Origin: a virus
DNA: 20,352 nt
Strand: one strand, 5' to 3'
Virus record (IMG/VR): IMGVR_UViG_3300009128_000166
Location: 1 to 20,352 of that record
Numbering within the stretch: the stretch's first letter is position 1; each line of letters starts with the position of its first letter. The translations under genes and the position numbers were made by a program. The notes beneath the pieces are model-generated. The model was not told the origin of the DNA. It ran no database searches and saw only the letters and a list, made by a program, of their open reading frames with translations. Positions 1-19,113 of this stretch are shown here, in pieces.

Positions 1-624
1 ATCGAAGTCACCACCTGGGTTTGTCCAGGCGACACCCGTGGTATAGTTGTTCCATGTTGCATCATCCACTTCATCATGAATATCGAACACATCACCATTC
101 GTGAAGTCATCATTAACACCACCACTCAAACCACCAGTCATATTCGCTTGATCTGTTCCTGTGAATGATGTGATAACTCCAGCACAACCATCGTTTCTAT
201 TGAAGACCGAATCACCGATTGCGGCACCATCACCTGGAAAATCCTCACCAGTATCCTTTGCGAATGCTGCACCATTCCCCCCATCGTGTGAGTAGGTTGC
301 TATTTCATTCTCCCCACCAGAACCCTCAGTCCAATCACCATGGTTCAACTTATACACCTCTAACAGACCTGGACCTGGTGACCACCCAACAGGAATATTT
401 AACCTGAGAAGAACCTGTTTTATTGCGAGGTCTGCATGCGGATATGGGTTGCTTGGCATTGTGCATCCAAGAAGGATTCTCGTACCATGGGCGACAGGCC
501 AACCACCAGCAACCGTTCTCCAATATGCACTTAATTCCTGGTTGCTCCCATTATTCACATACTGTAATGATTCATCAATTGAGGTGTCCTTAGTGATGCT
601 TTCTGTCACGGATGCTTCGACCAT
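1..624 (-). CDS. Fibre- or receptor-binding-type virion protein, partial (runs off the left edge)
   Basis: Reading the minus strand from the ATG at 624, all 208 codons to the window edge are open, so this is the N-terminal part of a longer gene. The product begins MVEASVTESI and is rich in Gly, Asp, Asn and Thr. A segment near residues 70-110 (LRLNIPVGWSPGPGLLEVYK followed by HGDWTEGSGG) resembles DNRLRE-type beta-sandwich domains, which occur in surface and carbohydrate-binding proteins; this is a resemblance by eye only. There is no signal peptide. A TATA box lies 22 nt before the ATG and no Shine-Dalgarno site is obvious, which fits a leaderless mRNA; an in-frame GTG at 630 is an alternative start. 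It follows the terminase genes, where a distal tail or fibre gene is plausible. The coding call is firm, the role inferred. Confidence 0.8.
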   Translation of the reverse strand, partial: MVEASVTESITKDTSIDESLQYVNNGSNQELSAYWRTVAGGWPVAHGTRILLGCTMPSNPYPHADLAIKQVLLRLNIPVGWSPGPGLLEVYKLNHGDWTEGSGGENEIATYSHDGGNGAAFAKDTGEDFPGDGAAIGDSVFNRNDGCAGVITSFTGTDQANMTGGLSGGVNDDFTNGDVFDIHDEVDDATWNNYTTGVAWTNPGGDFD

Positions 625-795
625 AATCACAAAAAGGAAATTATAATATATATAATTATTGTGTCATGGGGGGTGGAGTGGGAAGAAGGATGTGCCCTCC
701 CTCCATCACTCCTGATCTGGAGAAAAAAGATTCAATCCCAAAGATAAGCGCGGCATAATCGCCTATTGGTTCAAATGCATTCGAGATATATAAAA
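625..795. other. Intergenic region between TerL and the fibre-type gene
   Basis: This is the longest gene-free stretch between well-supported genes. In the direction of transcription it holds an AT-rich TTTTATATAT just after the terL stop, a T-run (CTTTTTTC, about 726-733) that could act as an archaeal oligo-T terminator, a C-rich stretch (G-rich on the plus strand, about 667-682), and the TATA box of the fibre gene. Two frames of 16 codons start at 756 and near 716 but nothing supports them as genes. A packaging site could lie here, but no recognisable one is seen. Confidence 0.5.
647..654 (-). promoter_or_regulatory. TATA box of the fibre-type gene
   Basis: The minus strand reads TATATATA here, in an AT-only stretch (about 641-658). 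Its last base is 22 nt before the ATG at 624, the same spacing as three other TATA boxes in this window. Because the surroundings are an AT alternation, the exact register is less certain than at the other sites. Confidence 0.5.
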
Positions 796-2229
796 CTATT
801 GGAGACGCATGGTGCGTCCTTGTGAAACCTTCGATAACTGGTGCGCTCCCTCTAACGCATCGAGCATATCATCGTGCTGAGAGGTTGGAAACTCAGAATA
901 CTCAGTGAAGAAGTCCCTGTCGTTTATATCGATCCATATAGAACCGTTCTGGAAGAAGGGTGCAAGAGCATCGATCTTCATCTCTTTGTTTTTGGTCTGC
1001 ACGACCTCAATCACAGGGATCGCGTGTGATCGTTGTCTGACAACCTGTGCGTAACCCTGCTGGAACTGGTTCGCCTCGATTCCGACCACCATGGGTTTCT
1101 CCCGATGGTACTGTGCCTCGATCTGGGTGATCGCAGTGGGAAAATCAATTCTATCACGGTAGAACTTCGCAAAGCATCTCCCCTGCTTATCAACCATCAA
1201 CGTGCAGCAAACTGTGTAATCGTTCGTGGTCTTCAATCCGATGGCAAGATCCCAGAACTGCACCTTCCGAGCGAAGAACTTTGGAAGCATCATCACGTCT
1301 TCCCTCACCTGTGCGGGGTTCGTAGTGTAGTAGTGCAACCATTCTGTTTTTAATCTCTGCCCTTCCATAACTTTTGCATTATTCTGGAACTCTCTCTCGA
1401 AATAAATGATCATCTCTTCCTTCTTTAATAACAGTTTCTTGATGGGCCATGAATACTGCTCAAGGGGATCATCCCACAGAACTTTCGAGGGTCCGTGTAT
1501 CTCGACATCCGTTACCACATCGAACCCGTCTATCTCTTCAACAATGTAATCATGCTCTGGCTCTTGTATGATCGCTTTATCTATCGTCACATGGAACATC
1601 TGGGAATCTATCAAACGTTGGTAAATGTCATCAGGATGCTTCCTGGTGCCGACAACATGCTCCTTTGCCCCCGGTGCCAGAAGACCACCGACTGTCCCAG
1701 CATGCCACTGGAAAACGAAGTCTCGCATGCTTGGGGTCCTGGTGTTCTCATCGTCAACAATATCGTCCATAATAATAAGATCAAAGTGACCTCCAGTAAT
1801 AGCAGACTCAAGACCCACTGCTTCAATGGTTGCCTCAGTTCTGAACTCAGGACGATTCACCCAGAGCATGTTCCCAACCTTCTTGAACGTTCCGAGTTCT
1901 TCCTTGAAGTCTTCCTGTATCTTTTCTTTCCTCAATGCTGCTTCTATCGCTTCAAGGAACTTGTTCGCCATTTTAAAGGTCTTTGAAATGATAAGTATCC
2001 TGTAGTTTGGTCGATACAACGCATGCCAGAGTGGAGAAACTAAGGTGAAAATAACAGACTTCCCATGCTCCCTTGGAGATAATTGAAGGTGCCTGTCATA
2101 GTCCAGAGTTGCATACCATGCTTTTTGGTGGGGGGGAACTGACAGGTTCAGATAGTGGTTTGCGAAGAACGCTGGGTTTGACTCTCCCAGGGATTTATCC
2201 GTGTAGGCTTCCTCTTCTGCTGCTTCCAT
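796..2229 (-). CDS. terL: Terminase large subunit (TerL): packaging ATPase and nuclease
   Basis: This 477-aa protein drives genome packaging into the prohead and cuts the concatemer. The ATPase half has a Walker A-like loop SPREHGKS (residues 51-58), in which His replaces the more usual residue before GKS, and a Walker B strand LIIMDD (151-156). The C-terminal RNase H-like nuclease half has FWDLAIG (Asp327), GIEA (Glu385) and HDDMLDA (Asp453/454), giving the expected acidic triad. The length is normal for the family. The ATG at 2229 follows a good AGGAG site, 28 nt after terS ends. It is transcribed with terS and is the last gene before the fibre-type gene, whereas terminases usually stand at the head of the structural cluster. 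Confidence 0.95.
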   Translation of the reverse strand: MEAAEEEAYTDKSLGESNPAFFANHYLNLSVPPHQKAWYATLDYDRHLQLSPREHGKSVIFTLVSPLWHALYRPNYRILIISKTFKMANKFLEAIEAALRKEKIQEDFKEELGTFKKVGNMLWVNRPEFRTEATIEAVGLESAITGGHFDLIIMDDIVDDENTRTPSMRDFVFQWHAGTVGGLLAPGAKEHVVGTRKHPDDIYQRLIDSQMFHVTIDKAIIQEPEHDYIVEEIDGFDVVTDVEIHGPSKVLWDDPLEQYSWPIKKLLLKKEEMIIYFEREFQNNAKVMEGQRLKTEWLHYYTTNPAQVREDVMMLPKFFARKVQFWDLAIGLKTTNDYTVCCTLMVDKQGRCFAKFYRDRIDFPTAITQIEAQYHREKPMVVGIEANQFQQGYAQVVRQRSHAIPVIEVVQTKNKEMKIDALAPFFQNGSIWIDINDRDFFTEYSEFPTSQHDDMLDALEGAHQLSKVSQGRTMRLQ

Positions 2230-2257
2230 TTATTTCGTCTCCTGTTCCTATTTGTTA

Positions 2258-2881
2258 TCATGCATCGATCACCTTCGCTTTTTTTGCCCTGCTCTCCATG
2301 CGCTCATCAACGATAAGGTCAGCGATCTTCTTCCTGGTCTCTATCGATAGTTCTTTAATGTTCACAATTTGTTGACTTTGCTTGCTCACTATGTTCATTT
2401 GATTCTTAATGATGGTCTTTGCCTGGAATTCTAACACACCAAGACTCTGCAGATCTTCACGATAGTCAGAGGTGAGTTTGTTCAAGAATGATAGTTCCCT
2501 GACAACCTCCGTGCTATGACTCCACGCTCTTCTTTTTTTATTGTTCTCATCTTCCTCTGCAAGTATCGCTTCAATTCTTTTCTTCTGCACATTGATCATC
2601 TGCTCTCTTTCTTCAAGAATATTCAAGACCTTCATGCCCTTCATGATCTTTTTCCGCATGAGTCCTTTGAACTCATCTGGCGTGTCAATGTGCTTTCTCT
2701 TATACTCGTAAAGTTGTCGTGTGGTGTATCCTTCGCGCCACCTACTTTTACAAATTTGAACTATCTCTTTATATGTTCTCTTCGGTTCAACATCATCCTT
2801 CGTTTTAATAAGGTGTGCTATCTCTTTGATATGTTTCGATCTTGGAAGAATGCCGTGAGTGATTTTCTGATTCCCGTTCAT
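2258..2881 (-). CDS. terS: Probable terminase small subunit (TerS)
   Basis: The 207-aa, highly charged and largely helical product lies directly before TerL, where the small subunit that recognises the packaging site is normally found. Residues about 15-60 (HIKEIAHLIKTKDDVEPKRT, then a segment around YTTRQLYEYKRKH) could form an HTH-type DNA-binding region. The rest is predicted coiled coil, suiting the ring oligomer of TerS proteins. The frame is open back to a TTG at 2899, but I prefer the ATG at 2881 (MNGNQKITHG) because the octamer TATAAATA lies 22 nt before it, as at the portal gene and at 19083. The identity rests on position and composition, not on a conserved motif. Confidence 0.75.
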   Translation of the reverse strand: MNGNQKITHGILPRSKHIKEIAHLIKTKDDVEPKRTYKEIVQICKSRWREGYTTRQLYEYKRKHIDTPDEFKGLMRKKIMKGMKVLNILEEREQMINVQKKRIEAILAEEDENNKKRRAWSHSTEVVRELSFLNKLTSDYREDLQSLGVLEFQAKTIIKNQMNIVSKQSQQIVNIKELSIETRKKIADLIVDERMESRAKKAKVIDA

Positions 2882-2903
2882 TGTAAAAACATCCCTCAAC
2901 CCA

Positions 2904-2911
2904 TATTTATA
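2904..2911 (-). promoter_or_regulatory. TATA box of the terS-terL unit
   Basis: The minus strand reads TATAAATA, with 22 nt between its last base and the ATG at 2881. The box overlaps the flank of the preceding tail-terminator-type gene, which stops at 2914. A GAGGGATG about 10 nt before the ATG could be a weak ribosome-binding site. Confidence 0.65.
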
Positions 2912-2913
2912 AT

Positions 2914-3609
2914 TTATGTTGCATAGGTGATTCTCGAAACAGGGATCATGAACATGACAAATACAAGTGATGATTTATCGTGGTTGAAGTCATAATCAAA
3001 GTCGAAATCAATATCACCACGAATGACGCCCATGTATGCAGAGGTTGAACGATAGTTTCCCGTAGCATCGTCAGCAACCCAAGTGTCTGTGATCTTGAAG
3101 GTGTCCGTTGTAACGCCTGAGATGGTGAACGTTCCATTGTAGCTGGTCGTGTTCGAGATCACTACAACATCACCGTTCGAGAGGGCATGCCCTGCAGAGG
3201 TGACCGTGACCGTTCCTCCGCCTCCATCAGCGAACGCGGTGATTGCTCCAGCGTTCGGAATATCCCTGTTTTGAAGCAACCATTGTTCAAGGTCCTCAGC
3301 GATATTAATTGCCCGTGTGAAGTCAACTACCCCTCGCCTTCCCTTCACCACTACAATACAGGTAATCTGGAAGTCATGGTCTTCTCTTGCTACCGTAGCA
3401 GCGGACACAGGATCAATGAACGGACCCAACCAGACCTCTTCCTCGTACTCGATGACTTTAAGATTTCGAGGGTCCTTATTGCAATACAGGACAGCATTGG
3501 CATTCATTGCTTCAAGGTAGGTCCACGTTCCACCGGCTGCCGTTATTAGTCCTTTCCAATAATCTCTGAGTGATGTGATGATCTTGTTTCTGTTCATTCT
3601 GACTGCCAT
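2914..3609 (-). CDS. Tail terminator/completion-type protein with an inserted FCCH-like domain
   Basis: The 231-aa product follows the HK97-gp10-like gene, the usual place of the tail terminator that caps the tube and joins it to the head. The outer parts (residues 1-120 and 189-231) read as one alpha/beta domain interrupted by an insert. The insert, about 122-188, contains SAGHALSNGDVVVISNTTSY, then NGTFTISGVTTDTFKI, a pattern like the E1_FCCH beta-barrel repeat (GH-LS-GD-V-I ... NGT-T-V--TTFT) common in phage virion proteins. The insert may be a surface decoration around the neck. The start ATG at 3609 has GGTGA 4 nt before it, overlapping the stop of the upstream gene. Terminator role inferred; the FCCH-like resemblance is seen by eye. 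Confidence 0.65.
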   Translation of the reverse strand: MAVRMNRNKIITSLRDYWKGLITAAGGTWTYLEAMNANAVLYCNKDPRNLKVIEYEEEVWLGPFIDPVSAATVAREDHDFQITCIVVVKGRRGVVDFTRAINIAEDLEQWLLQNRDIPNAGAITAFADGGGGTVTVTSAGHALSNGDVVVISNTTSYNGTFTISGVTTDTFKITDTWVADDATGNYRSTSAYMGVIRGDIDFDFDYDFNHDKSSLVFVMFMIPVSRITYAT

Positions 3610-3613
3610 GCGT

Positions 3614-4006
3614 TCACCGTCCGAGTAAGTTTGCCATAATGTTCGATGTGATACCTTTTGCTCTGAGGTTTGTCTTCTTCACTGCCTTCTCCATGTATTT
3701 GTAGCCCTTGAAGGAAGTGGAGGTGCCCCAGCGTGGATGCCTGCCCCCGATCTCGATCCATACTGAATAGATTCGGTGCGGTCCAACGATACGAGTTAAA
3801 CCACCACCAAGGATCCTGTCTGTTCTGATGGATCTTGAGAGTTGCCCGGTCCACTTCTTCACGTTCCGAACAAGGACGATCTTCGCTTCCTTCTCCAAGA
3901 ATAAGGCGAGTGCTGCAACCGCTTTGACCCTTCCTTTTTTCACCAGGGTCTTATTCTGGTTCATTGCCTGGTTGAACTGGCTGAGATCAACATCCATCTC
4001 GATCAT
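3614..4006 (-). CDS. HK97-gp10-like head-tail joining or tail completion protein
   Basis: The 130-aa product has the family pattern: an N-terminal helix, then W-T-G-Q-L-S-R-S-I (near residues 57-65), a strand around IYSVWIEIGGRHPRWG, and a C-terminal helix beginning YKYMEKAVKKT. HK97 gp10-like proteins sit at the head-tail interface. The ATG at 4006 overlaps the stop of the upstream gene in an ATGA arrangement, so translational coupling is likely. An in-frame ATG four codons on is an alternative start. The length is normal and nothing appears broken. Confidence 0.8.
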   Translation of the reverse strand: MIEMDVDLSQFNQAMNQNKTLVKKGRVKAVAALALFLEKEAKIVLVRNVKKWTGQLSRSIRTDRILGGGLTRIVGPHRIYSVWIEIGGRHPRWGTSTSFKGYKYMEKAVKKTNLRAKGITSNIMANLLGR

Positions 4007-4410
4007 GCATCATCATCTTCGTTCACTTCATAGAATTGCTGGCTGTAGTTCTTTCTTATTGGCCCTGGTGATCCTGTTCGTTTCCTGCTGTCGTCAACAT
4101 AGGTGTTCTGGATGTGTTTCTCAAGTCTGATCATACCTCTTTCCTGAAGCCATGATGCTTTCTCACGCAATTCATCAGTACGTTCAAACTTGTTCTCGAT
4201 CACAAGACCTGCCGCAATATCCGCTTCTATTTCTTTTATCAGCTGGGTGGGGGAGGAAAGGGGAAGGGACGATTCGAAGTTCTGCAGTTCATCATCAATG
4301 ATACTTTGAGCATAGACGCGCATTGCATCAATGATCGTGTCGAAGTCAGTGTGCTGTGCATCGTCTATCCTGAAATACACCATGGCGTCTGTAGAATAGG
4401 TCGTGGTCAT
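4003..4410 (-). CDS. Probable head-tail connector protein
   Basis: This 135-aa acidic and mainly helical protein (FDTIIDAMRVYAQSIIDDEL, later ELREKASWLQERGMIRLEKH) stands between the 109-aa gene and the gp10-like gene, a position usually held by head completion or adaptor proteins. I do not recognise a family motif. The ATG at 4410 directly follows the TAA of the gene before it, with a strong GGAGGT site inside that gene's last codons. The segment around ESSLPLSSPTQL is encoded by a C-rich tract that makes a G4-type motif on the opposite strand. The connector role is inferred from position and size. Confidence 0.55.
   Translation of the reverse strand: MTTTYSTDAMVYFRIDDAQHTDFDTIIDAMRVYAQSIIDDELQNFESSLPLSSPTQLIKEIEADIAAGLVIENKFERTDELREKASWLQERGMIRLEKHIQNTYVDDSRKRTGSPGPIRKNYSQQFYEVNEDDDA
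4245..4268 (+). other. G-quadruplex-type motif on the plus strand
   Basis: The plus strand carries four G-runs: GGG (4245-4247), GGGGG (4249-4253), GGGG (4260-4263) and GGG (4266-4268), with loops of 1, 6 and 2 nt. This fits the classical G3+N1-7 rule. It lies inside the 135-aa gene on the strand that serves as transcription template. Formation in the cell is not shown. Confidence 0.5.
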
Positions 4411-4740
4411 TTAGGGACCTCCGTTCGGAACACCGATCTTCGGCAGTCGTCCTTCACTCTTCGCGGTAGCCTGTTCGATGATTGAAACGTTGCCTGTGTA
4501 TTTATCCACGGTTTTGCTTTGTTTCCGCACAAGCGTCAACAGGTTTCTCATGTGACTTCGTGACATAAAGTGGACTTTGATCATCGCCCTGAATTGTGCC
4601 TCTGTGAACAGTGTCTGCCATCCGTCCTTGAACCTGCTTGGATACAGGTTGATCAGTTGCTTTGCAACCAGCATGCCATCCCTGCCCGATACCGCTTCAT
4701 TGATCCAGTAGTTGAATGTCTTCCGTACTTCTGCCGACAT
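4411..4740 (-). CDS. Small structural-cluster protein, function unknown
   Basis: The 109-aa product is basic and largely helical (VRKTFNYWINEAVSGRDGML, then FRAMIKVHFMSRSHMRNLLT). I do not recognise its family. It is the first gene after the giant surface protein and the first of four tightly packed genes leading to the tail terminator, so a head completion or neck role is possible. The ATG at 4740 is preceded by GTGAT, which overlaps the TGA stop of the giant gene. The translation has no frameshift or truncation. Confidence 0.6.
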   Translation of the reverse strand: MSAEVRKTFNYWINEAVSGRDGMLVAKQLINLYPSRFKDGWQTLFTEAQFRAMIKVHFMSRSHMRNLLTLVRKQSKTVDKYTGNVSIIEQATAKSEGRLPKIGVPNGGP

Positions 4741-4744
4741 GGTA

Positions 4745-8974: not shown

Positions 8975-8989
8975 GCTTGTCACCCCTGA

Positions 8990-9379: not shown

Positions 9380-9413
9380 AAAATGACACCAATTCTATTG
9401 ATGCATGAAAGTT

Positions 9414-10007
9414 CTATTTAATCTTTATGTTTTCCCAGTGTTGCAAATATGCCTTCTTATATGCAGGGTCAAGTTCCTTCATGGAGTTGTGAATATAGAA
9501 TAAAAGTTCCTGCGGGATCTTCTCAACACGGTATGCGGGATTGCACACGAACTTACCACGTTTGTCCCAAAATAGCTGACCAGGGCTGTGCTTCCACTCA
9601 TCACGATAATTATAAACCCAGATGACTGATTGTGACCCTGTTTTCTCAACGATCGTGACTAATCCAGAATCCCAGTTCTTAAGCCTTTTAAAAAAAGAAA
9701 AAGTCCGGTCTGTAATGACCGGTATGGTATCAGCGTCCATCACAAAGAAGATGTCATCATCATTGACCCCTTCAAGGTAGATGTCCCTCTGCTTGTGCTG
9801 TTCCAACTTATCATCCGAGATGATCAGGGATGTGCAAAGGTCTTCCAACCACTCAGGGGGATCAACCCAGGGGTGAGGGAAGCCTTTGAACCTACCATAA
9901 ACGACAGTGATCGAATCTGCATGTTTCTGCAGTGTCTGAAGAGAATCACGAAAGGAGTCGGGCACGTTGAATGCCGCGACCCCGAACTTGATCTTTGCCT
10001 CAGTCAT
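9414..10007 (-). CDS. GT-A-type glycosyltransferase-like protein
   Basis: The 197-aa product starts with a strand resembling a nucleotide-sugar-binding Rossmann half (KIKFGVAAFNV) and contains DDIFFVMDADT (residues 83-93). Its Asp91-Ala-Asp93 is the DxD motif by which GT-A enzymes hold metal and nucleotide-sugar. Acidic and aromatic residues follow (FWDKRGKFVCNPAYR). It is shorter than most family 2 enzymes and has no membrane span. The ATG at 10007 overlaps the end of the gene before it, without a clear ribosome-binding site, so coupled translation is likely. Its place among head and surface-protein genes suggests it may glycosylate a virion protein or the giant surface protein. The donor and acceptor are unknown. 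Confidence 0.6.
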   Translation of the reverse strand: MTEAKIKFGVAAFNVPDSFRDSLQTLQKHADSITVVYGRFKGFPHPWVDPPEWLEDLCTSLIISDDKLEQHKQRDIYLEGVNDDDIFFVMDADTIPVITDRTFSFFKRLKNWDSGLVTIVEKTGSQSVIWVYNYRDEWKHSPGQLFWDKRGKFVCNPAYRVEKIPQELLFYIHNSMKELDPAYKKAYLQHWENIKIK

Positions 10008-10347
10008 TCAATGCACGAAGTTTGTCGATCTCACTTTGGAGTTCTCGATTTTGTTCGTGCAGTGCATCGACCTCTGACTGGTCTGCTGGAACCAGAGGAA
10101 TTTCCAAGGAATCCTGATGTGCTTCGAACCACTCACGGGGGACGGTAATGATCGATCCACGAAGAACTACCTGGTAGCCCTTGTTCGCTTCCTCTTTCGT
10201 GGTTGCGGCAAGGATGTCCTTGCCGATCGCCATCTGATGGACTGCAACCCGACAGGTCACAGTGTCATTCAGTGGTTCTTCGATCTCTTCTGGTTCTGGC
10301 GTTGGTTCCGGTGAAGGCGTTGCCTTCTTTGTGCGTTTTGCTGACAT
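10000..10347 (-). CDS. Small protein with Pro/Glu linker and C-terminal coiled coil
   Basis: This 115-aa protein has a basic start (MSAKRTKKATPSPEPTPEPE), a Pro/Glu linker, a compact middle (about 30-85) containing GYQVVLRGSIITVPREWFE, and a C-terminal heptad-like helix (EVDALHEQNRELQSEIDKLR). I do not recognise a family. Small proteins of the form 'hydrophobic core with a residue-boundary VP--WFE' are often found beside capsid genes. The ATG at 10347 follows a good AGGAG site 15 nt after the capsid gene stop. It overlaps the glycosyltransferase start by 8 nt. Confidence 0.6.
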   Translation of the reverse strand: MSAKRTKKATPSPEPTPEPEEIEEPLNDTVTCRVAVHQMAIGKDILAATTKEEANKGYQVVLRGSIITVPREWFEAHQDSLEIPLVPADQSEVDALHEQNRELQSEIDKLRALND

Positions 10348-10362
10348 AGTTTGGTCTCCTGT

Positions 10363-11271
10363 TTAGATGTCTGAGATTTTGCAGATGGCGTTGGTCTCAT
10401 AGATGATCGGGATGAGACTTTCGAAGACTTTCCCTTTCAGACCTCCACCGTCTGCGATCGGTCTGTTCCACAGATCGACATCAAGATCCTTCTCAATCAC
10501 CAGTTCAAAGAATCCAAGGTTGGACCCATCAACTGGGAGAAGCATCCCGTCACTGGCTGCCATAGTTGCAGACTGCCAGATTCGTCCACGGTCTGGACCG
10601 ATGGATGGACCGCCTGATCCACCCCCGTCATTCAGCATGTCTTCGATGATCGGAAGTTCATGGACTCCAGTGCTTGAGATCGATCCCTTCAGTTCTGCAT
10701 ACTGTGTCGGGTTCAGAACCATGTGATAGGGTGGTTCGATATTGTCGTTCAGCAGAAGGTTCATTGCACCCTCAACTGCGACTGTCGGCTTCCCGAAGGT
10801 GCCGAAGTCAGCGGTTGTGCTGAAGTCATTCCCTGCTGAGTTGTAGAGTCCGTTGATCGCAGGACCGGGTGCGCCTGCCGTGGTTCCCACCAAGATCAGA
10901 GCGTTCTCAAGTTCAGCGACCTTCCTGCTTGCCTTCTCCACAGCGTTCGACTGCAGTGACTGTCCTGCTGTCATGGAGGCAGCAACGTCACGATCATCCA
11001 GGTCGAAACCATGCTGAATCACTGGGATGTCCACTGACGTCCTGGTGAGTTTGGGCTGATCCAGCTGTTCCACAAGACCGTAGGCGATCTGTGCTGTGCT
11101 GAACTCAGAAGCGACATCGTATCTGAAGACCGACTTTCCCCATCCAAGGGGTGGTCTTTTGACACCAATGAGATCCCGTGCCCAGAGTTTTGCCCGTGCC
11201 GCGATGTGGATCTGCTGCCTGATGAATTCGTACTGTTCGGTTGTTGTGATTGCATCTCTAAAGCCATTCAT
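10363..11271 (-). CDS. Major capsid protein, HK97 fold, encapsulin-like
   Basis: The 302-aa product reads like the encapsulin (Linocin_M18) branch of HK97-fold shell proteins: an N-terminal helix with LWARDLIGVKRP, a strand around LTRTSVDIPVIQHGFDLDDR, the long spine helix region (SNAVEKASRKVAELENALIL) and then GLYNSAGN, followed by A-domain residues near YHMVLNPTQYAELKG. The position fits: it follows the protease-scaffold and decoration genes. The ATG at 11271 has a near-perfect GAGGTGAT five nt upstream, the best ribosome-binding site in the cluster, as expected for the most abundant virion protein. Assignment is by pattern and position; a structural match would settle it. Confidence 0.85.
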   Translation of the reverse strand: MNGFRDAITTTEQYEFIRQQIHIAARAKLWARDLIGVKRPPLGWGKSVFRYDVASEFSTAQIAYGLVEQLDQPKLTRTSVDIPVIQHGFDLDDRDVAASMTAGQSLQSNAVEKASRKVAELENALILVGTTAGAPGPAINGLYNSAGNDFSTTADFGTFGKPTVAVEGAMNLLLNDNIEPPYHMVLNPTQYAELKGSISSTGVHELPIIEDMLNDGGGSGGPSIGPDRGRIWQSATMAASDGMLLPVDGSNLGFFELVIEKDLDVDLWNRPIADGGGLKGKVFESLIPIIYETNAICKISDI

Positions 11272-11280
11272 AGTATCACC

Positions 11281-11814
11281 TCAGATCAAGGACAGGACGA
11301 TGATGTCCTCCGCGCCTCCTGACGCATCTTTGTCTTCCAGAGCAATCGCAACCACAATACCTTGGGTTGGAAGTCCTCCACCCATGGTCATCGCAGGTGT
11401 TGCAGATGTGGATGTCACTGCTGTCGAACCGCTTGGGGTTGTTGCAGTGATAGCGGTCGAAGCGGTGAGTTCACCGGCTGCAGCTGCTGAGAGTCTTGCA
11501 CCGAAGGTCACGTTCTGACCGTTCGCCAGACTTCCAACGATTGCGAACCCTCCACCGTACAGGACAGGTGCCCATACAGCAGTGTAGATGGTGTCCACAG
11601 TCTCAGGACGGGTTGATTTCTTCCCTCCCTGCTCGTATCCGAGCCAACCGATGACCGCATCGTTCACAGTGCCGACCACGATCTGATGATCTGCGGTGCC
11701 TTTCTCGACCAGCCGACCAGCATACATCGTGGTGACTGTCTCGATCAGGAATTCATTCACCATGGGGGTTCCCTGAACCAAGATTCCGTTGTTTGGTTTC
11801 TGTAGTGTTCCCAT
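11281..11814 (-). CDS. Head decoration or cement protein, DUF2190-like
   Basis: The 177-aa product is rich in Gly, Ala, Thr and Val with short strands such as AGRLVEKGTADHQIVVGTVN and GFAIVGSLANGQNV, a pattern like DUF2190/Gp24-type capsid stabilising proteins. A low-complexity Ala/Thr/Ser stretch lies near residues 108-142. It stands between the protease-scaffold and the capsid protein, the usual place for such a protein. The ATG at 11814 is preceded by GTGATC, overlapping the stop of the protease-scaffold gene. Expected function: binding the outside of the expanded capsid. Confidence 0.65.
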   Translation of the reverse strand: MGTLQKPNNGILVQGTPMVNEFLIETVTTMYAGRLVEKGTADHQIVVGTVNDAVIGWLGYEQGGKKSTRPETVDTIYTAVWAPVLYGGGFAIVGSLANGQNVTFGARLSAAAAGELTASTAITATTPSGSTAVTSTSATPAMTMGGGLPTQGIVVAIALEDKDASGGAEDIIVLSLI

Positions 11815-11818
11815 ATGA

Positions 11819-12289
11819 TCACTTACCCTGGTTCCTCAGATCGTTCATTGCGGACCCATGCTTATAGACAGTGAATCCATCCTGTGGTCCTGTTTGCCGG
11901 TCTGTCCCAGACCCTGCAACATGGGCGTTCCCAGGTTTCTTCATGCTGTCTGCTACCTTGAGGGCAGCTTCCATGGCTTCCTTTCCCATCGTTTTGATGG
12001 CTGCGTCTTCGAACACACCTGTCTCTTTCACCTTGGAACGGAGTTCATCGATTTCCTTCTTCTGAAGTTCCTCAACAATCGTCTTGAACTTTGTGAGTTC
12101 ATCGCGTTCTTTGGTTAAAGATTCAACAACCGTGCCCGATTCATCGAGTTGTTTCTGAAGCTGATCCCGTTCCAAAACCAGTTCTTCGACACCTCGATTA
12201 TCCTTTGCCAGTGCATCAACCGACATCTTCCCCACACATGGTGGTTTGACTGGTGGTTGTCCTGGCGTGTTCGCGTCGTTGTCGGACAT
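11819..12289 (-). CDS. Nested scaffold protein from an internal in-frame start
   Basis: Met198 of the protease-scaffold gene (ATG at 12289, MSDNDANTPGQ) has GAGGT at 12298-12302, eight nt before it, and lies exactly between the linker and the scaffold region. Starting there would give a separate 156-aa scaffold. Its start (MSDND) also resembles the start of the full-length protein (MSDEE). Nested scaffolds of this kind are known in lambda (Nu3 inside C) and related systems. An AT-rich CTTATATATTTGG lies 60 nt upstream. This is an inference from the site; no expression evidence is available. Confidence 0.45.
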   Translation of the reverse strand: MSDNDANTPGQPPVKPPCVGKMSVDALAKDNRGVEELVLERDQLQKQLDESGTVVESLTKERDELTKFKTIVEELQKKEIDELRSKVKETGVFEDAAIKTMGKEAMEAALKVADSMKKPGNAHVAGSGTDRQTGPQDGFTVYKHGSAMNDLRNQGK

Positions 12290-12880
12290 ATTATCTAACC
12301 TCGTATCTTTATTGTCAATACTTGGTGTTTCATGAAAGATGTCACCAAATATATAAGAGTTATTGTTTTGTGAGTCTGCACCAATACCACACTGAGGAAG
12401 GGGGCAGGCGGGGGGGGATGTAGGAAGTAGTGCTAAGTGGAACGGCATCACATTGGTTCTTTTGTGGGTGTAATCCTTCCCATTGAATGTTCCCGGTTCC
12501 ATCACCTTCGTCATAGAGTATCCTATCGATACATTCTTCAGTTCTCCTTCATCCATTTGTTTGATGATCTCAGTGTGATCCTTCTCGATGCCCACTTCAC
12601 CCCATGCCGCAGGAACACCATTCACTTCCTCCATTGTGACGTTCCTGGTGAAACCATAGGATCCATTATCCCTGTTATAGACTTCGATACCCTGTTCTGG
12701 GTGTTCCATCGTGATCGGAAGTCCATTTAGGTAGGGCAGCATCCGTGTCAGTTCGTCTGCTGATTGGAACCCTCCGTTGATCACACCTTCTTTCGTGAGT
12801 CCCACACGGTAAAAGATATGGGTCTCTGTTTCTTCAATGCGCTTTGCATCGATCTGTTTCACTTCTTCTTCATCAGACAT
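11819..12880 (-). CDS. DUF2213-type prohead protease fused to a scaffold domain
   Basis: The 353-aa product has two parts. Residues 1-165 match the DUF2213 protease pattern: GLPITMEHPEQG with His60, NVSIGYSM with Ser118, and FHLALLP with His148, the likely catalytic residues. A linker (about 154-197, with PTSPPACPLPQC and an Asn/Gln run) leads to a charged coiled-coil region (about 225-300) typical of scaffolds that fill the prohead and are then digested. The ATG at 12880 has GTGAT 4-5 nt upstream. The DNA of the linker carries a run of 8 G on the plus strand (12410-12417). A nested start for the scaffold part alone is listed separately. Confidence 0.75.
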   Translation of the reverse strand: MSDEEEVKQIDAKRIEETETHIFYRVGLTKEGVINGGFQSADELTRMLPYLNGLPITMEHPEQGIEVYNRDNGSYGFTRNVTMEEVNGVPAAWGEVGIEKDHTEIIKQMDEGELKNVSIGYSMTKVMEPGTFNGKDYTHKRTNVMPFHLALLPTSPPACPLPQCGIGADSQNNNSYIFGDIFHETPSIDNKDTRLDNMSDNDANTPGQPPVKPPCVGKMSVDALAKDNRGVEELVLERDQLQKQLDESGTVVESLTKERDELTKFKTIVEELQKKEIDELRSKVKETGVFEDAAIKTMGKEAMEAALKVADSMKKPGNAHVAGSGTDRQTGPQDGFTVYKHGSAMNDLRNQGK

Positions 12881-12884
12881 TTAA

Positions 12885-15059
12885 TCACGTCCCAGGAATA
12901 ACAGGTATTAAGTCGCAGGTGCAGTTCGGGTGGACAGGAACAACACCATGAGCGGGTGGAAGATCATCAGGGTTCGGACCCTGCAACCAGTATTGATTCC
13001 CAACCAGAACCTGGCACTCTTCATCGGCTGTCGGGCTGACCAGAATCTCAACGATGGTGATCTGCTCCTGCTCATACGAGTCCAAGCGTGACTCCACCAC
13101 CATTCGTGCGGTCTCAGTTCTGATCATCGTCCTTAGATTGTTCGTGTTGTATTTATCGAATGTTTCCGCTATGGATGACTGCATGGTTCTCAGGAGTCTC
13201 TTTGCGTCAGCCTGTGTGCTGACTGAGATCCCTTTTGTCAGGATGTCGTTCAGTGCCTGTTTGATGTTCCGGTCTATGGTTTCATTGGTGTTCACGAACT
13301 GAATATCAGCTTGATTATTGATCCACTTTTGTGCTTGGGCATCATTGGGGTCAAACGTTGTCCCTATCTCATAGATGCCCTGGTCTATCATGAGATCATT
13401 ATGTTCAGTTCCACCAGCAGCATAGATTTCCTGCATGCTCTTCAGCATTTCCCTATGTAGTTTTGGATTAGTTACCTTCAGCTTTGCAAGTGCTGCCTGC
13501 ACATCGATCACAGAATCAGTACCGATGTTCTCATTGAATATCTTCTCGATAGCCATCTGCCATTTTCTTTCCCACCTTGCCATCTCAGGATCCACGTTGG
13601 TGTGGAACTCTCGCTCGAAAGGCTTCGGGTTGATACCGATGCTTGATTCTATGCGCTCATATTCCTGTGTTCCTTTCTGATCATGTGCTTTCAATAACTT
13701 CTGATCGATTGCTTTGTGTTCTTCGAGCATACCACCAGATTCATCAGAAACAGTTATCTCACCCTCAACGAAGGCGACTGACATGCCCATGTTCTTCCAG
13801 ATTAATGCAGTCTGCGCTTCTATCAGTGCGGTGGTCTTCTCGATCTTCACGATCTCAGCAAGTTCTTTCCTTGATAAAACCAGTAGTGAGGTCCAGTTGA
13901 ACTTGTAGATTCCGTCACCATGTATTTGATTCGATTCGAATCCAAGGTTGTTGATCTTCCTGATGATGGGTTCTGCATCGATTATCTGCCTATTCTCTAT
14001 GTATTTATAATACTCATCCCTATTGATCTCGGAACCAGTTAATTTACCGGCAGGGAGACCTTCAAGGAGATACCGGGGAACACCGGCAGCGGAGAGGGCC
14101 GACATGATGAAATCAACATGCTCACTTATGTTCAGTCCGTTATTCGTGGCAACCGTCTCGATCTCATACCCTGGAAGCATCACCCAGGTTTGTTTTATGT
14201 TCAGATCCTTGAAGGTATCAAGCAGGACACCCATCAATGTATCCTGTTCATCTTTCGTGTAAACAGTATATATCCATTCTGGAAGTTTTAAGATTCTGTA
14301 GGGTGAAATATTCTGCCATACATCTTCTGCGATAGCATACATGAGATTGTGATATGAAAGTAATGCATTGTAGATACCTTTGAACCATGACTCCCCATAG
14401 ATACTGTTGCGGATGTCAGGACGGGTCCAGTGGATGACACGCGATGCATGCACATTAAATGTATCTGTTCCATTCCCGTCTGCCCTGATAAGATCATACG
14501 AAAGGATCTTCCCATAGGTGTCTGATTTTGTATCAAGGTCGATGTTTATCTTCTTGATTGCTGGTTTTCCGACAGGCGTCAGGTACTCGATCTCTGCCCC
14601 CTTCTTTGCCTCTTGTGCAAGATCCATCTCACCGTCTTTGAAACCGATGACGATCAATGACAAACCATAGATCATTCTGAACCGGTCAGCTGTCTTCACG
14701 ACTGGTCTTGTTTCAAGGTCTGATTCAAACTGCCTGATCGATTCATCTTGCCCCTCAGAGTCTGAAACAGGATCATACCATTTATCAAACGTATCGCTGA
14801 GAATCCGTGACAGCATCCTGTTCGAGATAAGGACACGCTCTGCCATGTATTCATATTCACCATCGTCTATTGTCTCTGGGAAGTTCCTTCGTGTCTGTGC
14901 TGGTTGTCTTCTTTCGGTGAATCCTTGGGAGGGTATCGCACGGGGTCCACCACCGACCATTAACTGATCATGTCCAGTCTGCATGACGCTGGTCATTGTA
15001 TCTGCGGAAGGATGTGGTTGTGATGTTCTTCTTCTGAACGGATTCTTGAACTTTCCCAT
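12885..15059 (-). CDS. Portal protein fused to a MuF/SPP1-gp7-like head morphogenesis domain
   Basis: The 724-aa protein is much longer than an ordinary portal (about 450-550 aa). Residues about 70-460 look like a portal of the DUF1073 type (EYMAERVLISNRMLSRILSD near the start, NSIYGESWFKGIYNALLSYH, then LLEGLPAGKLTGSEINRDEY). The C-terminal ~140 residues match the MuF/gp7 head-morphogenesis domain, including NLRTMIRTETARM and the ending PVHPNCTCDL with His710, Cys713 and Cys715. So the protein that forms the packaging channel carries the minor head protein as a tail. The ATG at 15059 has AGGTGA 4 nt upstream and a TATA box 22 nt upstream; it opens the head module. Confidence 0.85.
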   Translation of the reverse strand: MGKFKNPFRRRTSQPHPSADTMTSVMQTGHDQLMVGGGPRAIPSQGFTERRQPAQTRRNFPETIDDGEYEYMAERVLISNRMLSRILSDTFDKWYDPVSDSEGQDESIRQFESDLETRPVVKTADRFRMIYGLSLIVIGFKDGEMDLAQEAKKGAEIEYLTPVGKPAIKKINIDLDTKSDTYGKILSYDLIRADGNGTDTFNVHASRVIHWTRPDIRNSIYGESWFKGIYNALLSYHNLMYAIAEDVWQNISPYRILKLPEWIYTVYTKDEQDTLMGVLLDTFKDLNIKQTWVMLPGYEIETVATNNGLNISEHVDFIMSALSAAGVPRYLLEGLPAGKLTGSEINRDEYYKYIENRQIIDAEPIIRKINNLGFESNQIHGDGIYKFNWTSLLVLSRKELAEIVKIEKTTALIEAQTALIWKNMGMSVAFVEGEITVSDESGGMLEEHKAIDQKLLKAHDQKGTQEYERIESSIGINPKPFEREFHTNVDPEMARWERKWQMAIEKIFNENIGTDSVIDVQAALAKLKVTNPKLHREMLKSMQEIYAAGGTEHNDLMIDQGIYEIGTTFDPNDAQAQKWINNQADIQFVNTNETIDRNIKQALNDILTKGISVSTQADAKRLLRTMQSSIAETFDKYNTNNLRTMIRTETARMVVESRLDSYEQEQITIVEILVSPTADEECQVLVGNQYWLQGPNPDDLPPAHGVVPVHPNCTCDLIPVIPGT

Positions 15060-15081
15060 TGTTTCACCTTTCGCATTGTTG

Positions 15082-15089
15082 TATTTATA
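15082..15089 (-). promoter_or_regulatory. TATA box of the head module
   Basis: The minus strand reads TATAAATA, with AAAA directly before it as a possible BRE. Its last base is 22 nt before the ATG at 15059, so transcription would start at or very near the ATG. The box overlaps the TAA of the tape measure gene. The AGGTGA at 15064-15069 would be missing from a strictly leaderless transcript, so it may serve read-through mRNA from the tail module. Confidence 0.65.
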
Positions 15090-15091
15090 TT

Positions 15092-16987
15092 TTATGATGT
15101 TGATGGTTGTGTTCTTCTGATGTGTGCAATATCTTCTGCGTTTCGGGTTTGTTGTATCTTCCAGAACTCTTCAGCGTCTACAAGGAAGTAATTATTAACG
15201 ACTTGACCACCACCTTCATTGGCTCCGGAAGGGGGGAGGGTGCTTGCAGTGTTGCCAGAAAACGCATCACCAGTTCGATTGGTCATGTCTTCAACGCCTG
15301 CGATAATATTCGGATTCTGCATGCCATCGAACCAGGCGACTGCAATCTCTTCTCCTGCCTGTTCAACGTTCGCAAGTTTCCCCTTCTCCGGCAGGGACCC
15401 ACCGAACCACTTCCCGACTTCATCCACTGCGTCACCTATCGGACCCATATTGTCAAGTATTCCTTCCTTTAAGCCATCCATCCACGCAGTGCCAGCATCC
15501 TGCCCCATCTCTCTCATGGTTTCCGCAAGGTTGAAGATGGTCGTCACCATACCAAGAACAACTGCAACGAATGCCTGCACTGAAGCAGTGACTCGATCCC
15601 AGTTCTCATACAAAGTAACAAGTGCTAAACTAATAAGAATTATCTGCCCTATGATTGGAACACCGATCAACAGAAGCAACCACTGCCGATTCTCTTTTAT
15701 TGCCTCTGTGACTCGATCCCAGTTCTGCCAAAGAAGAACAAGAGCGAGTATCACAGCAAGGATGCCTGCGGCAAGCCATACACCAGGGAATGCGAACGCG
15801 GCAACGTTCGCTGCCCACTGTGCGATGGTGTATGCCCATAGAGCGATCTTGAAAGCAATGTATGCAGTGACTAAACCAAGGATAACATCAGTGTTGTCTG
15901 CAATGATCCCGATCAAAGGTGTCAGGATGCCGACCATCTGAACAAGCGCGGGAAGGACACCTTCTGCAAGTTCTATCTTCAGGTCCTCCATTGCAGACTC
16001 GAACTTCTGTGTCTCTGCAGCATCCGACTCAAGGAACTGTGCTGCACCATCGGCTGCAGTACCCACTGCGCTTAGATTTGATTCTGCGGTTGTCTGCACA
16101 GCATCCATTGCATCGATGATCACCCCCATGGCAGCGGCAGAACGTTGCCCGAATGCAACGAACATATCAGAGGTTGTTGCACCGGCATCCAACAGATCAT
16201 TGAAGACCTCTGACATGGTTCTCAGGTTGCCGTTCACATCGAATGCAGAGACCCCGAAGTTCTCCATCATGATCGCTGCGTTCCCGGTGCCTGATGCCAT
16301 CTGCTGGAATCCAGTAAGAAGACCTTGGATCTGCCCGACACCTGCATCCTTGAGAACACCGATAAGAGCGGCAGTCTCTTCGAATGAGACACCAATGCCC
16401 GTCATGATCCTTCCAAGCTGGATAAGTGAAGGAATCTGCACATCGACAGCTGTGCCTGTTGCGAACATGGTGTTTGCAAGAACGTCAACAATTCGAGTGG
16501 CATCTGATGCTTCCAGTTTGAACGCTGACATGACATCCTCAATGCCTCTTGTGATAAGCGCAAGATCCCCACCAGCGACAGCTGCCAGGTTCATTGCATT
16601 CCTCACCGTGTCAAGAGTACCCTGCACCCCTCTTCCTTCGTCAGCGATAGCAGCGAATGCCTTCGCGGTTTCAAGGTGTGAGAAGATGCCCCCTGCAGCG
16701 GTGTCTGCAAGAAGGTCGATGCTCTCCCTCAGCATGTTGGCTTCATCGGTTGCAAGACCCATGGCAATCGCAGAACGGGTGACGGCAGCATCATATTCAA
16801 TAGCACCCTCTGTGAACTGCTTCACCATATTAATAGCACGACTTATTGATTCTGTGATGAGAATAAAAGAGGCAGCGGTGTCTGTGATAGATGACCCCAT
16901 GCTGCTCGCTGAAGATTTGATATTGTCAAAAACTTTGGTTGCTTTGTCGATTGCAGTGACCGTGACTGCAACCTTCGGGTCAACCAT
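15092..16987 (-). CDS. Tail tape measure protein
   Basis: The 631-aa product sets tail length and lies inside the tube. It has the TP901-type pattern: a polar start with an early helix (AIDKATKVFDNIKSSASSMG), Ala/Gly/Met-rich segments (AMGLATDEANMLRESIDLLA; GTAVDVQIPSLIQLGRIMTG), then a strongly hydrophobic stretch at about 350-480 and a polar Gly-rich tail. The ATG at 16987 touches the stop of the frameshifted chaperone. At 1.5 angstrom per residue the tail would be about 95 nm. It is followed by the portal gene, not by a distal tail protein, which is unusual. Two copies of a W-NWDRVT motif are listed separately. Confidence 0.9.
   Translation of the reverse strand: MVDPKVAVTVTAIDKATKVFDNIKSSASSMGSSITDTAASFILITESISRAINMVKQFTEGAIEYDAAVTRSAIAMGLATDEANMLRESIDLLADTAAGGIFSHLETAKAFAAIADEGRGVQGTLDTVRNAMNLAAVAGGDLALITRGIEDVMSAFKLEASDATRIVDVLANTMFATGTAVDVQIPSLIQLGRIMTGIGVSFEETAALIGVLKDAGVGQIQGLLTGFQQMASGTGNAAIMMENFGVSAFDVNGNLRTMSEVFNDLLDAGATTSDMFVAFGQRSAAAMGVIIDAMDAVQTTAESNLSAVGTAADGAAQFLESDAAETQKFESAMEDLKIELAEGVLPALVQMVGILTPLIGIIADNTDVILGLVTAYIAFKIALWAYTIAQWAANVAAFAFPGVWLAAGILAVILALVLLWQNWDRVTEAIKENRQWLLLLIGVPIIGQIILISLALVTLYENWDRVTASVQAFVAVVLGMVTTIFNLAETMREMGQDAGTAWMDGLKEGILDNMGPIGDAVDEVGKWFGGSLPEKGKLANVEQAGEEIAVAWFDGMQNPNIIAGVEDMTNRTGDAFSGNTASTLPPSGANEGGGQVVNNYFLVDAEEFWKIQQTRNAEDIAHIRRTQPSTS
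15588..15726 (-). repeat. Duplicated NWDRVT unit in the tape measure
   Basis: A 19-nt sequence occurs exactly at 15588-15606 and again at 15708-15726, 120 nt (40 codons) apart. It encodes NWDRVT in LVLLWQNWDRVTEA and LVTLYENWDRVTAS. Both copies follow a hydrophobic helix, so a 40-residue unit was duplicated. Repeated W-NWD motifs are known in other tape measures. Confidence 0.75.
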
Positions 16988-17862
16988 TTAATTCCACCCC
17001 TCGCGCTCTCTCCTGAGACGTTCCTTGGTGGAGGTTGCTGGTTTCGAACGTTCTTGAATTTCCTTGTTCACAATTCCAGTAAGTTGTATGTCTAATAAAT
17101 ATCTTTCCATTTCACCCGGCATGTCTTCAAAGTTAGGGTCTATGAAATCAGAAGGTTTCATGGAGTAGTTTTTGGCTGCGGCACCTACTGCAATCCAGGC
17201 GTCAGAGTGGAGATCTCGTTTTTTTTTGCAAGTTCATCCAATTCTGAGTGGATCGTGACATTTGTGAAGATAGCATCACGATCATCAACATCTATGTCAA
17301 GGATGAAGATTCCATCACCATCAGGGTATGGAGTGATCAATGGTTCAATAACTGCCTGACATATTACCAGATGTTTGAAGGTCATTGGGTTGTCGTCTTT
17401 CCCCAGCACCTTATCCAATTTCCTCACTAATTCAGGACTTAGATTATTTGGATCTATGCCTTCACCTGTCTTTGTGTTGTGCATCTTCTTCACTTCGTTC
17501 ATCGTCTTCTTATCCATCATTGCAATGGCATTGGTGAATCGAAGCGGGGTGATCTTTCGTATCTTGAACACAGCACCTGAATCTGTAGTGATGATCTTTT
17601 CTTTCTTCTTCTGGTATGCTTCCTTTAACGCAAGATAGTCAGAGGGGGAGGTGGGGGTGGGTGTTGCAGGTGCAGGTATTGGTTTCAACTGGGGTCCTTC
17701 TTCAACCCAGGTCTCTTTTACATTCAAATCAACTTGTGGGTGATTATCAAAGTTATGTCGATCGAGACCACTCTGAGATTCGAATTGTTCGTTACATTTA
17801 ACGCAAAAATGTCCTGTTTTTTGATAATCTGTATCAAGCATTTCGTCCGTCATGTGTATCAT
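16988..17862 (-). CDS. Tail assembly chaperone, long form made by -1 frameshift
   Basis: Shifting the reading frame by -1 at the run of nine A (plus-strand T at 17219-17227) gives a continuous frame that passes the stop at 17185 and continues RDLHSDAWIAVGAAAKNYS MKPSDFIDPN ... to a TAA at 16988, immediately before the tape measure ATG. The full product would have about 291 aa. This is the G/GT (or gpG-T) arrangement of tailed phages, where the long form binds the tape measure while the short form coats it. The extension of 57 residues after its own ATG (17161) has no ribosome-binding site, so a frameshift explains it better than a separate gene. Frameshift efficiency is unknown. Confidence 0.7.
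17185..17862 (-). CDS. Tail assembly chaperone, short form, with N-terminal C2H2 zinc finger
   Basis: The 225-aa product has an N-terminal classical C2H2 zinc finger: Cys20-X2-Cys23-X12-His36-X4-His41, with Phe27 and Leu33 at the standard core positions. A Pro/Thr linker follows (about 63-75), then a chaperone-like alpha/beta domain (ITPLRFTNAIAMMDKKTMNE and onward). Its place between the tail tube and the tape measure, and the frameshift site near its end, identify it as the gpG-type chaperone. The frame opens at 17862, but the in-frame ATG at 17853 has a better upstream site (AGGA) and may be the true start. A zinc finger is not usual in this family. Confidence 0.75.
   Translation of the reverse strand: MIHMTDEMLDTDYQKTGHFCVKCNEQFESQSGLDRHNFDNHPQVDLNVKETWVEEGPQLKPIPAPATPTPTSPSDYLALKEAYQKKKEKIITTDSGAVFKIRKITPLRFTNAIAMMDKKTMNEVKKMHNTKTGEGIDPNNLSPELVRKLDKVLGKDDNPMTFKHLVICQAVIEPLITPYPDGDGIFILDIDVDDRDAIFTNVTIHSELDELAKKNEISTLTPGLQ
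17219..17227 (-). other. Slippery run for -1 ribosomal frameshifting
   Basis: The minus strand reads GCAAAAAAAAACGAG, nine A in a row, in zero-frame GCA AAA AAA AAC GAG. Both A AAA AAA and A AAA AAC heptamers are in the correct phase for -1 slippage. The short form ends 11 codons after the site, and the -1 frame is then open to 16988. Polymerase slippage on the homopolymer is another possible mechanism. Confidence 0.7.
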
Positions 17863-17915
17863 TCCTGTTCATTGGATGTGAAGACCCTTCATGTCTCCCG
17901 TTCCATGTATCGTGA

Positions 17916-18872
17916 TCAGTATGCTGCAATTTCATTCTGCAGTTCGATGGCAATCGTTCTGGATGCAGAAACATTATAGATGGCAGTCCATGATATGTTC
18001 TCATGCATCCGACTCTGTTTGTCTTGGTTCCCTGACCGGGTATCGAAGATGACTGAACCCATCAGGACATTGAACTGATACGCATCGCTCCCACTGATGA
18101 TGGGACCGGTGAATGATGCGTTCAGGGCGAAGGGAGCAACGGGTGTCGCAGGGGATGTTCCTGTTGATCCATCATAGAACTTCTTCCATTGTGTGATCGA
18201 GCCGAAGTTCAAGTCCATGGTTCCCGATACTTTCAGACCTCCCCACTGTGCCCTTCGCAGAAACTGGGATCCAATACTATACCCATCTTCATAGACGTTG
18301 TTCTCAATGTCGATCTGTATGGCTTCAACGTTCGTGTCAGATACACCACCAATCGTTATGTCTCCCTCTGTGAAGGAGAAGGGGGTGAGCGCAGAGAAGG
18401 TGGGTGTTGCTATCGCGGCCTGTTCTGACGTTTCTGCAATGACATCTATCGTTCCGGATACGAACTCATTCACTGCCGCTTTGATCGATAGTTTCTTGAT
18501 GAATGCACTGGTCAGCTTGTTCTCGCCTGCAGCAACGTCACCACCAAGACCAAGAGTGAATGTTGTGATCGTGTCGGCTGGGGTGAATGTGTGCTTATCG
18601 ACAGCGTTCACCACCGATGAACTGACGGCACCAAGGGACCCAAGAAGGATGAATCCACAGTTCTCAGGAGCAATGGGGAAGTCTATCGGTCCACCGACCT
18701 TGTACGTTCCGACAGCCTGCTTATGAGTATTCCTGCTTTCAACAGTATCAAGATACATGATCTGTCGGTCTGCGGTCACACCATCCTTGTAGATGTCAAC
18801 ATACTTCGTATATGCAACCGCTGTGCTGAAAGCAGATTCCTTTCCCAATGCCATATAACGATCCTGTGCCAT
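17916..18872 (-). CDS. Tail tube (major tail) protein
   Basis: The 318-aa protein has features of phage tail tube proteins: an N-terminal segment MAQDRYMALGKESAFSTAVA, conserved-looking strands (GPIDFPIAPENCGFILLGSL; TFTLGLGGDVAAGENKLTSA) and a beta-rich C-terminal half (QWGGLKVSGTMDLNFGSITQ). It lies just before the chaperone and tape measure genes, the usual order. The frame begins at a TTG at 18881, but the ATG at 18872 (MAQDRYM) directly follows the previous gene and has GAGG upstream; I use this start. The protein should polymerise into the tail tube. With no sheath gene seen, a non-contractile tail is likely. Confidence 0.85.
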   Translation of the reverse strand: MAQDRYMALGKESAFSTAVAYTKYVDIYKDGVTADRQIMYLDTVESRNTHKQAVGTYKVGGPIDFPIAPENCGFILLGSLGAVSSSVVNAVDKHTFTPADTITTFTLGLGGDVAAGENKLTSAFIKKLSIKAAVNEFVSGTIDVIAETSEQAAIATPTFSALTPFSFTEGDITIGGVSDTNVEAIQIDIENNVYEDGYSIGSQFLRRAQWGGLKVSGTMDLNFGSITQWKKFYDGSTGTSPATPVAPFALNASFTGPIISGSDAYQFNVLMGSVIFDTRSGNQDKQSRMHENISWTAIYNVSASRTIAIELQNEIAAY

Positions 18873-18873
18873 G

Positions 18874-19083
18874 TTACTCAACCTCTGCTGGTTCTTTTGG
18901 TGATGGTTTTAGCTTATTGACGATCTTGAAAAGAGGGTTATCGTTGGCAACCAATTGGTCTGCGACATCCTTCGGGATCTTCTTTATCTCGTCAGGTGCC
19001 CACATCCCAGGGACCAACATGGTGTGAGCAGAAGAAGTGCCAAGGTATTGAACACTTATCAACTTCACCTGTTTTTTTGTCAT
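18874..19083 (-). CDS. Small protein opening the tail module, function unknown
   Basis: This 69-aa protein (MTKKQVKLISVQYLGTSSAH, then VPGMWAPDEIKKIPKDVADQ) has a short strand-rich start, an acidic helix and a charged tail with SPKEPAEVE. Small proteins with a 'P--VA--L' helix of this type occur beside head or tail genes in many phages; the function is unknown. The ATG at 19083 has a TATA box 22 nt before it and only a weak GAGAAAG, so a leaderless transcript is likely. It is the first gene of the tail module, and its last codons contain the ribosome-binding site of the tail tube gene. Confidence 0.65.
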   Translation of the reverse strand: MTKKQVKLISVQYLGTSSAHTMLVPGMWAPDEIKKIPKDVADQLVANDNPLFKIVNKLKPSPKEPAEVE

Positions 19084-19105
19084 GCTTTCTCAAAAGTGAT
19101 TAAGA

Positions 19106-19113
19106 TATTTATA
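19106..19113 (-). promoter_or_regulatory. TATA box of the tail module
   Basis: The minus strand reads TATAAATA, preceded by AAAA. The surrounding 12 bases AAAATATAAATA (19106-19117) are identical to those before the portal gene (15082-15093). The box ends 22 nt before the ATG at 19083. Confidence 0.7.

Follow-up and report, generated by a model that had tools for sequence, protein, structure and literature searches.

Gene layout of the window

The stretch of DNA analysed here (the window) is the whole of IMG/VR record IMGVR_UViG_3300009128_000166, 20,352 nt long, and its minus strand holds all recognisable genes. Profile searches identified a tail protein (phrog_290), a tape measure protein, a portal-MuF fusion, a head protease, an HK97-type capsid protein, a tail completion/neck protein and a large terminase. 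The features on which the analysis turns are listed below in descending order of coordinates; gene starts were selected partly by hand, and the labels 'fibre' and small terminase (terS) are based on position or appearance.

19106..19113, minus strand: TATA box TATAAATA, 22 nt before the ATG at 19083, with GGGAAAA just upstream (the BRE position)
18874..19083, minus strand: 69-aa gene opening the tail run (open reading frame list; no family match by profile search)
17916-18872, minus strand: tail protein (phrog_290), following the 69-aa gene
Between tail protein and tape measure, minus strand: a 225-aa gene, then a 57-aa gene (open reading frame list)
15092-16987, minus strand: tape measure (profile search)
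15082..15089, minus strand: TATA box TATAAATA, 22 nt before the ATG at 15059, with CATAAAA just upstream
15064..15068, minus strand: Shine-Dalgarno (SD)-like GGTGA, past the box and ahead of the portal ATG (pairing energy -8.5 kcal/mol)
12885..15059, minus strand: portal-MuF fusion opening the head run (phrog_146, PF06381; MuF-type C-terminus)
14002..14009, minus strand: a fourth copy of TATAAATA, inside the portal gene, with no start codon at 22 nt
11819-12880, minus strand: protease, second in the head run (profile search)
11281-11814, minus strand: head-run gene between protease and capsid genes (open reading frame list)
10363-11271, minus strand: HK97-type capsid protein (profile search)
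2904..2911, minus strand: TATA box TATAAATA, 22 nt before the ATG at 2881, with CATAAAT just upstream
2258..2881, minus strand: putative small terminase (terS), opening the packaging run (position before the large terminase only; no family match)
796..2229, minus strand: large terminase (terL), second in the packaging run and SD-led (phrog_38, E 8e-85)
787-794, minus strand: TTTATATA, just past terL, with no start codon at 22 nt
647..654, minus strand: TATA box TATATATA, 22 nt before the ATG at 624, with CAATAAT just upstream
1..624, minus strand: gene truncated by the window edge, earlier labelled fibre (no family match)

The head run continues past the capsid gene with further genes, down to 2914. 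The earlier note had described the four boxed genes as opening the tail, head, packaging and fibre modules. Profile matches bear this out for the head run, through the portal, and for the packaging run, through terL; the tail opener, the supposed fibre gene and terS are without a family match.

Two other genes drew attention. The product of the gene in the position of a tail chaperone (17185-17862) has, close to the N-terminus, a motif resembling a C2H2 zinc finger (FCVKCNEQFESQSGLDRHNFDNH). A 197-aa protein (9414-10007) has a DAD motif and relatives encoded near the capsid gene in two of the related loci (L008 and L012); it has no match in PHROG or Pfam, and we take it to be perhaps a GT-A type glycosyltransferase.

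Four TATA boxes at one distance from start codons

At all four boxed starts the last base of the box lies exactly 22 nt before the ATG, as the earlier note had reported for the three copies of TATAAATA and for TATATATA at 647-654, and the 12-mer AAAATATAAATA is indeed common to the sites at 19106 and 15082. When the 60-nt upstream regions of 22 gene starts were scored against TWTAWATA, only these four boxes reached 8/8, all with a gap of 22. The minus strand holds six TWTAWATA sites in total, and in four of the six exactly 22 nt separate the box from the ATG of a gene. The remaining two had escaped the earlier note. The copy of TATAAATA at 14002-14009 is presumably not the promoter of any annotated gene. 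TTTATATA at 787-794 sits in the 171-nt gap that follows terL (624-796), 30 nt before the ATG of a 16-codon frame; it is TATA-like and could be a second promoter in that gap.

The boxed starts also differ from the rest of the genes in their surroundings, with intergenic gaps of 32-171 nt against 0-15 nt for most other genes. The spacing helps to choose between start codons: it supports the ATG at 2881 over the TTG at 2899 as the terS start, as had been proposed, and likewise the ATG at 624 over the GTG at 630.

Boxes of this kind could in principle line up by accident: they sit in AT-rich intergenic DNA, and the motif was picked post hoc. TATAAATA occurs four times against 0.19 expected, and none of 100 dinucleotide shuffles reached four. 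Three boxes at one gap never arose in 20,000 base shuffles of the same 60-nt upstream regions, which preserve composition and gave at most two (in 11 shuffles), and 6 of 20,000 draws of 22 random minus-strand ATGs yielded one octamer three times at a single gap. Against the post hoc choice of the motif, both tests score whichever gap gives the highest count, and the random-ATG test does so for octamers too. The shuffles and draws thus uphold the claim that three boxes with identical spacing are improbable by chance, and a chance origin is effectively refuted.

Archaeal or bacterial promoter elements

All four sites carry a TATA octamer of the TWTAWATA type and an A-rich BRE, as expected of archaeal core promoters. 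The dinucleotide AA stands at box positions -3/-2, the BRE position, in 4/4 spaced boxes and in 0/2 of the other minus-strand boxes, which are preceded by GAGTAT and AATAGT. An archaeal initiator would have a pyrimidine ahead of a purine start; the base before the ATG is a pyrimidine (C or T) at 19083 and 624, and A at 15059 and 2881. The virus itself has the HK97 capsid, portal and terminase of an archaeal tailed virus, with relatives in archaeal genomes.

The same letters might be read as bacterial sigma-70 promoters, with TATAAA or TATAAT as the -10 box and a leader of about 18 nt. ATGACA-16-TATAAT (11/12) before the gene at 624 and TTGATA upstream of the 19106 box would fit such a reading. 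However, the start at 624 is the only one with a minus-strand candidate among -35/-10 hexamers 16-18 nt apart; no -35 hexamer among the listed sites pairs with the minus-strand boxes of 19083, 15059 and 2881, and sigma-70-like sites are not enriched (30 vs 26.2, sd 6.0). The capsid protein also speaks against it: its best cellular matches, at about 37-39% identity, are in virus-like elements of the archaeal metagenome-assembled genomes (MAGs) JdFR-19 and B74_G9 and of genome G377, and it has no match in the annotated phage collection. These three elements are likewise the nearest rows of the capsid tree, with weak support. We therefore regard bacterial promoters as very improbable here.

The spacing in cellular genomes and published promoters

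A calibration of the spacing comes from 0.8 Mb of the archaeal MAG JdFR-19, which carries a related element. TWTAWATA-to-ATG distances there have a sharp mode at a gap of 22, where 11 sites fall, the background being 0.8 per gap; another 4 sites have a gap of 23. The 11 gap-22 sites are all distinct sequences, and in 14 of 19 sites of a broader pattern a pyrimidine precedes the ATG. The spacing in the window thus equals the mode of a cellular genome; gene starts in the comparison genomes were called mechanically. Two other genomes that carry related proviruses, G165 and G377, have no clear gap-22 peak, in line with the wide variation in leaderless usage among archaea (PMC4983044).

An apparent gap-22 peak in a further genome, G149 (10 vs 1.0), was discarded, as eight of its sites are the promoter of one repeated gene and only about three sites remain. 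This gene, mostly of 314 aa and probably encoding a transposase, has TTTAAATA 22 nt before the ATG in every copy (L098, L100, L101, L102, L115, L122 and L132), and looks like a mobile element whose leaderless promoter inflates promoter counts.

The geometry also agrees with published maps. In Methanolobus psychrophilus the BRE/TATA lies about 19-22 nt from measured start sites (PMC5378194), and in Thermococcus the TATA centre is near -27 and the BRE near -33 (PMC5316973); in the window, 26.5 nt separate the centre of the box from the A of the ATG. Archaeal leaderless promoters, found in Sulfolobus and Haloferax and for a minority of genes in Methanolobus, Methanosarcina and Thermococcus, also have an 8-bp TATA box, with its centre some 27 nt ahead of the transcription start (PMC5316973, PMC4983044, PMC3160421). 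They share with the window an A-rich BRE just upstream; in them a leaderless opening gene is followed by SD-led distal genes, an arrangement reviewed for Sulfolobus (PMC3160421) and predicted for the window. The window differs from these known cases in that it belongs to an uncultivated tailed virus known from sequence only, has one invariant spacing at four starts and retains SD-like sequences at portal and terS.

The arrangement in related viruses

Relatives were sought by single-protein scans with five proteins (terL, portal, capsid, tape measure and tail protein) and, for capsid, terL and portal, by alignment scans as well. None of these scans found a relative above about 39% identity over the length of any query protein; a 177-aa protein has one 91-residue stretch at 59% in another locus (L011). 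The distant relatives are mostly ordered otherwise, with terL adjoining portal, and are therefore a poor test of the spacing; most of them have no strict box at gene starts.

The earlier note had suggested a search of relatives for the box and the 22-nt gap, and its outcome was divided. Among the relatives found, only L018 (IMGVR_UViG_3300032516_000091, 20.9 kb) has this portal-MuF fusion preceding its capsid gene. There, as in the window, portal-MuF opens the head run and has a TATA box ahead of it; in L018 about 100 nt of intergenic DNA precede the gene, and the box is the single TWTAWATA lying 14-34 nt before any called start. L018 differs in its gap, which is 26 rather than 22, in having one box rather than four, and in a portal only 24% identical to that of the window. 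A TATA box 26-27 nt before an ATG is also found at a 319-aa gene in L054 (13545, minus strand), L055 (8470, plus strand) and L071 (10498, plus strand), so that a TATA-opened head run recurs among these viruses and the value of 22 is not universal. In these three proviruses the 319-aa gene sits just upstream of the capsid genes, as a recurrent internal head promoter.

A search of 238 genomes of the class of JdFR-19 for CRISPR spacers or shared DNA identified no spacer; the DNA matches fell in the provirus capsid region, apart from short hits at about the level that chance would give. Head-tailed viruses of ANME-1 and related archaea, which infect uncultivated methane- and alkane-cycling archaea, likewise have the HK97-fold capsid, portal and terminase toolkit (PMC9894754). 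The main text of that study does not contain the word 'promoter', and the likeness to the window virus lies in the shared toolkit.

Two archaeal MAGs of separate assemblies (L020, MTMG01000013.1 94384-115208; L021, QMVI01000066.1) have a capsid/portal/tail cluster beside the same RND-type transporter gene; the stretch read showed no recognisable terminase. This cluster is possibly a domesticated or gene-transfer-agent-like element.

Predicted leaderless starts and Shine-Dalgarno-like sites

Most genes that follow their neighbour after 0-15 nt show strong pairing with the 3' end of 16S rRNA upstream of their start. At the boxed starts the picture is mixed: pairing is weak at 19083 (-2.7) and 624 (-3.2), and SD-like at 15059 (-8.5 kcal/mol, through GGTGA) and 2881 (-8.2). 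At terS the SD-like sequence is GAGGGATG, also within the 22-nt interval and farther from the ATG than GGTGA is at portal. Both are odd for purely leaderless genes and count against the explanation that we favour.

They could point to transcription that starts several bases upstream of the ATG, still from archaeal promoters, so that some mRNAs, the portal mRNA above all, would carry a short SD leader. The gap of 26 in L018 would suit this. Against it stand the weak pairing at the genes at 19083 and 624 and the mode of 22 in JdFR-19 as well, and for an mRNA to include an SD 5-16 nt upstream of an ATG whose A lies 26.5 nt beyond the box centre, the TATA-to-start distance would have to be unusually short. 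We consider such leaders unlikely. GGTGA would be missing from a leaderless portal mRNA and present on a read-through mRNA, and the portal and terS cistrons could thus also be translated from read-through transcripts through GGTGA and GAGGGATG.

Our preferred reading, to which we give a probability of roughly 85%, is that the four sites are archaeal TBP/TFB core promoters, with transcription predicted to start on the ATG or only a few bases away from it and with SD-led genes downstream. Host TBP and TFB would bind the A-rich BRE and the TATA box, RNA polymerase would start at, or a few bases from, the A of the ATG, and the gene that opens the run would be translated from a leaderless mRNA. For most genes behind the opener, which that polycistronic mRNA also carries, translation would be SD-initiated; portal, and possibly terS, would in addition be translated from their SD-like sites upon read-through from upstream. 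What is seen directly is the sequence of the boxes, their spacing and its non-randomness, AA at the BRE position, SD sites before most internal genes and a matching spacing in JdFR-19; it is from these that we infer the start sites, the use of host TBP/TFB, the extents of the operons, the timing of expression and the identity of the host. The proposal of archaeal TATA promoters, made in the earlier note, is supported, and the spacing likewise argues for leaderless or nearly leaderless transcripts, with the SD-like sites of portal and terS as a qualification. Judged by the spacing, transcription of the four genes very probably starts right at the ATG.

The proposed shared late-gene programme

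The identical box and spacing at four runs of structural genes had been taken to suggest one shared late-gene programme, which might mean a virus-specific class of late promoters, box and spacing being selected for joint switch-on by a viral activator or a late TFB. The regions upstream of the four boxes hold no 6-mer found in at least three of the four and no shared 8-mer, and the programme thus finds no support in a common motif. Moreover, cellular genes of JdFR-19 already have 22 nt as their modal spacing, and the early genes lie outside the window, so that no contrast with them is possible. We judge a late-promoter class to be highly unlikely. A common core promoter is expected for any gene read by host TBP/TFB, and the notion of a late programme therefore goes beyond the evidence; the 22-nt spacing reflects cellular promoter geometry.

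More tentatively, and with the odds against it, the SD-like site at portal may have been kept for dual-mode output, both from a leaderless mRNA that starts at the gene and from mRNA that reads through from the tail run, with the structural genes arranged in a few runs under uniform promoters. If true, dual-mode translation of portal could set the ratio of head to tail proteins.

The promoter arrangement is clear but of a textbook type: a clean further example of known archaeal leaderless initiation that leaves the picture of this process unchanged. Promoter maps are scarce for viruses of uncultivated archaea, and a sharp TATA-to-ATG spacing in raw sequence makes it possible, with no RNA at hand, to locate where transcripts begin, to choose among start codons and to make a case for an archaeal host.
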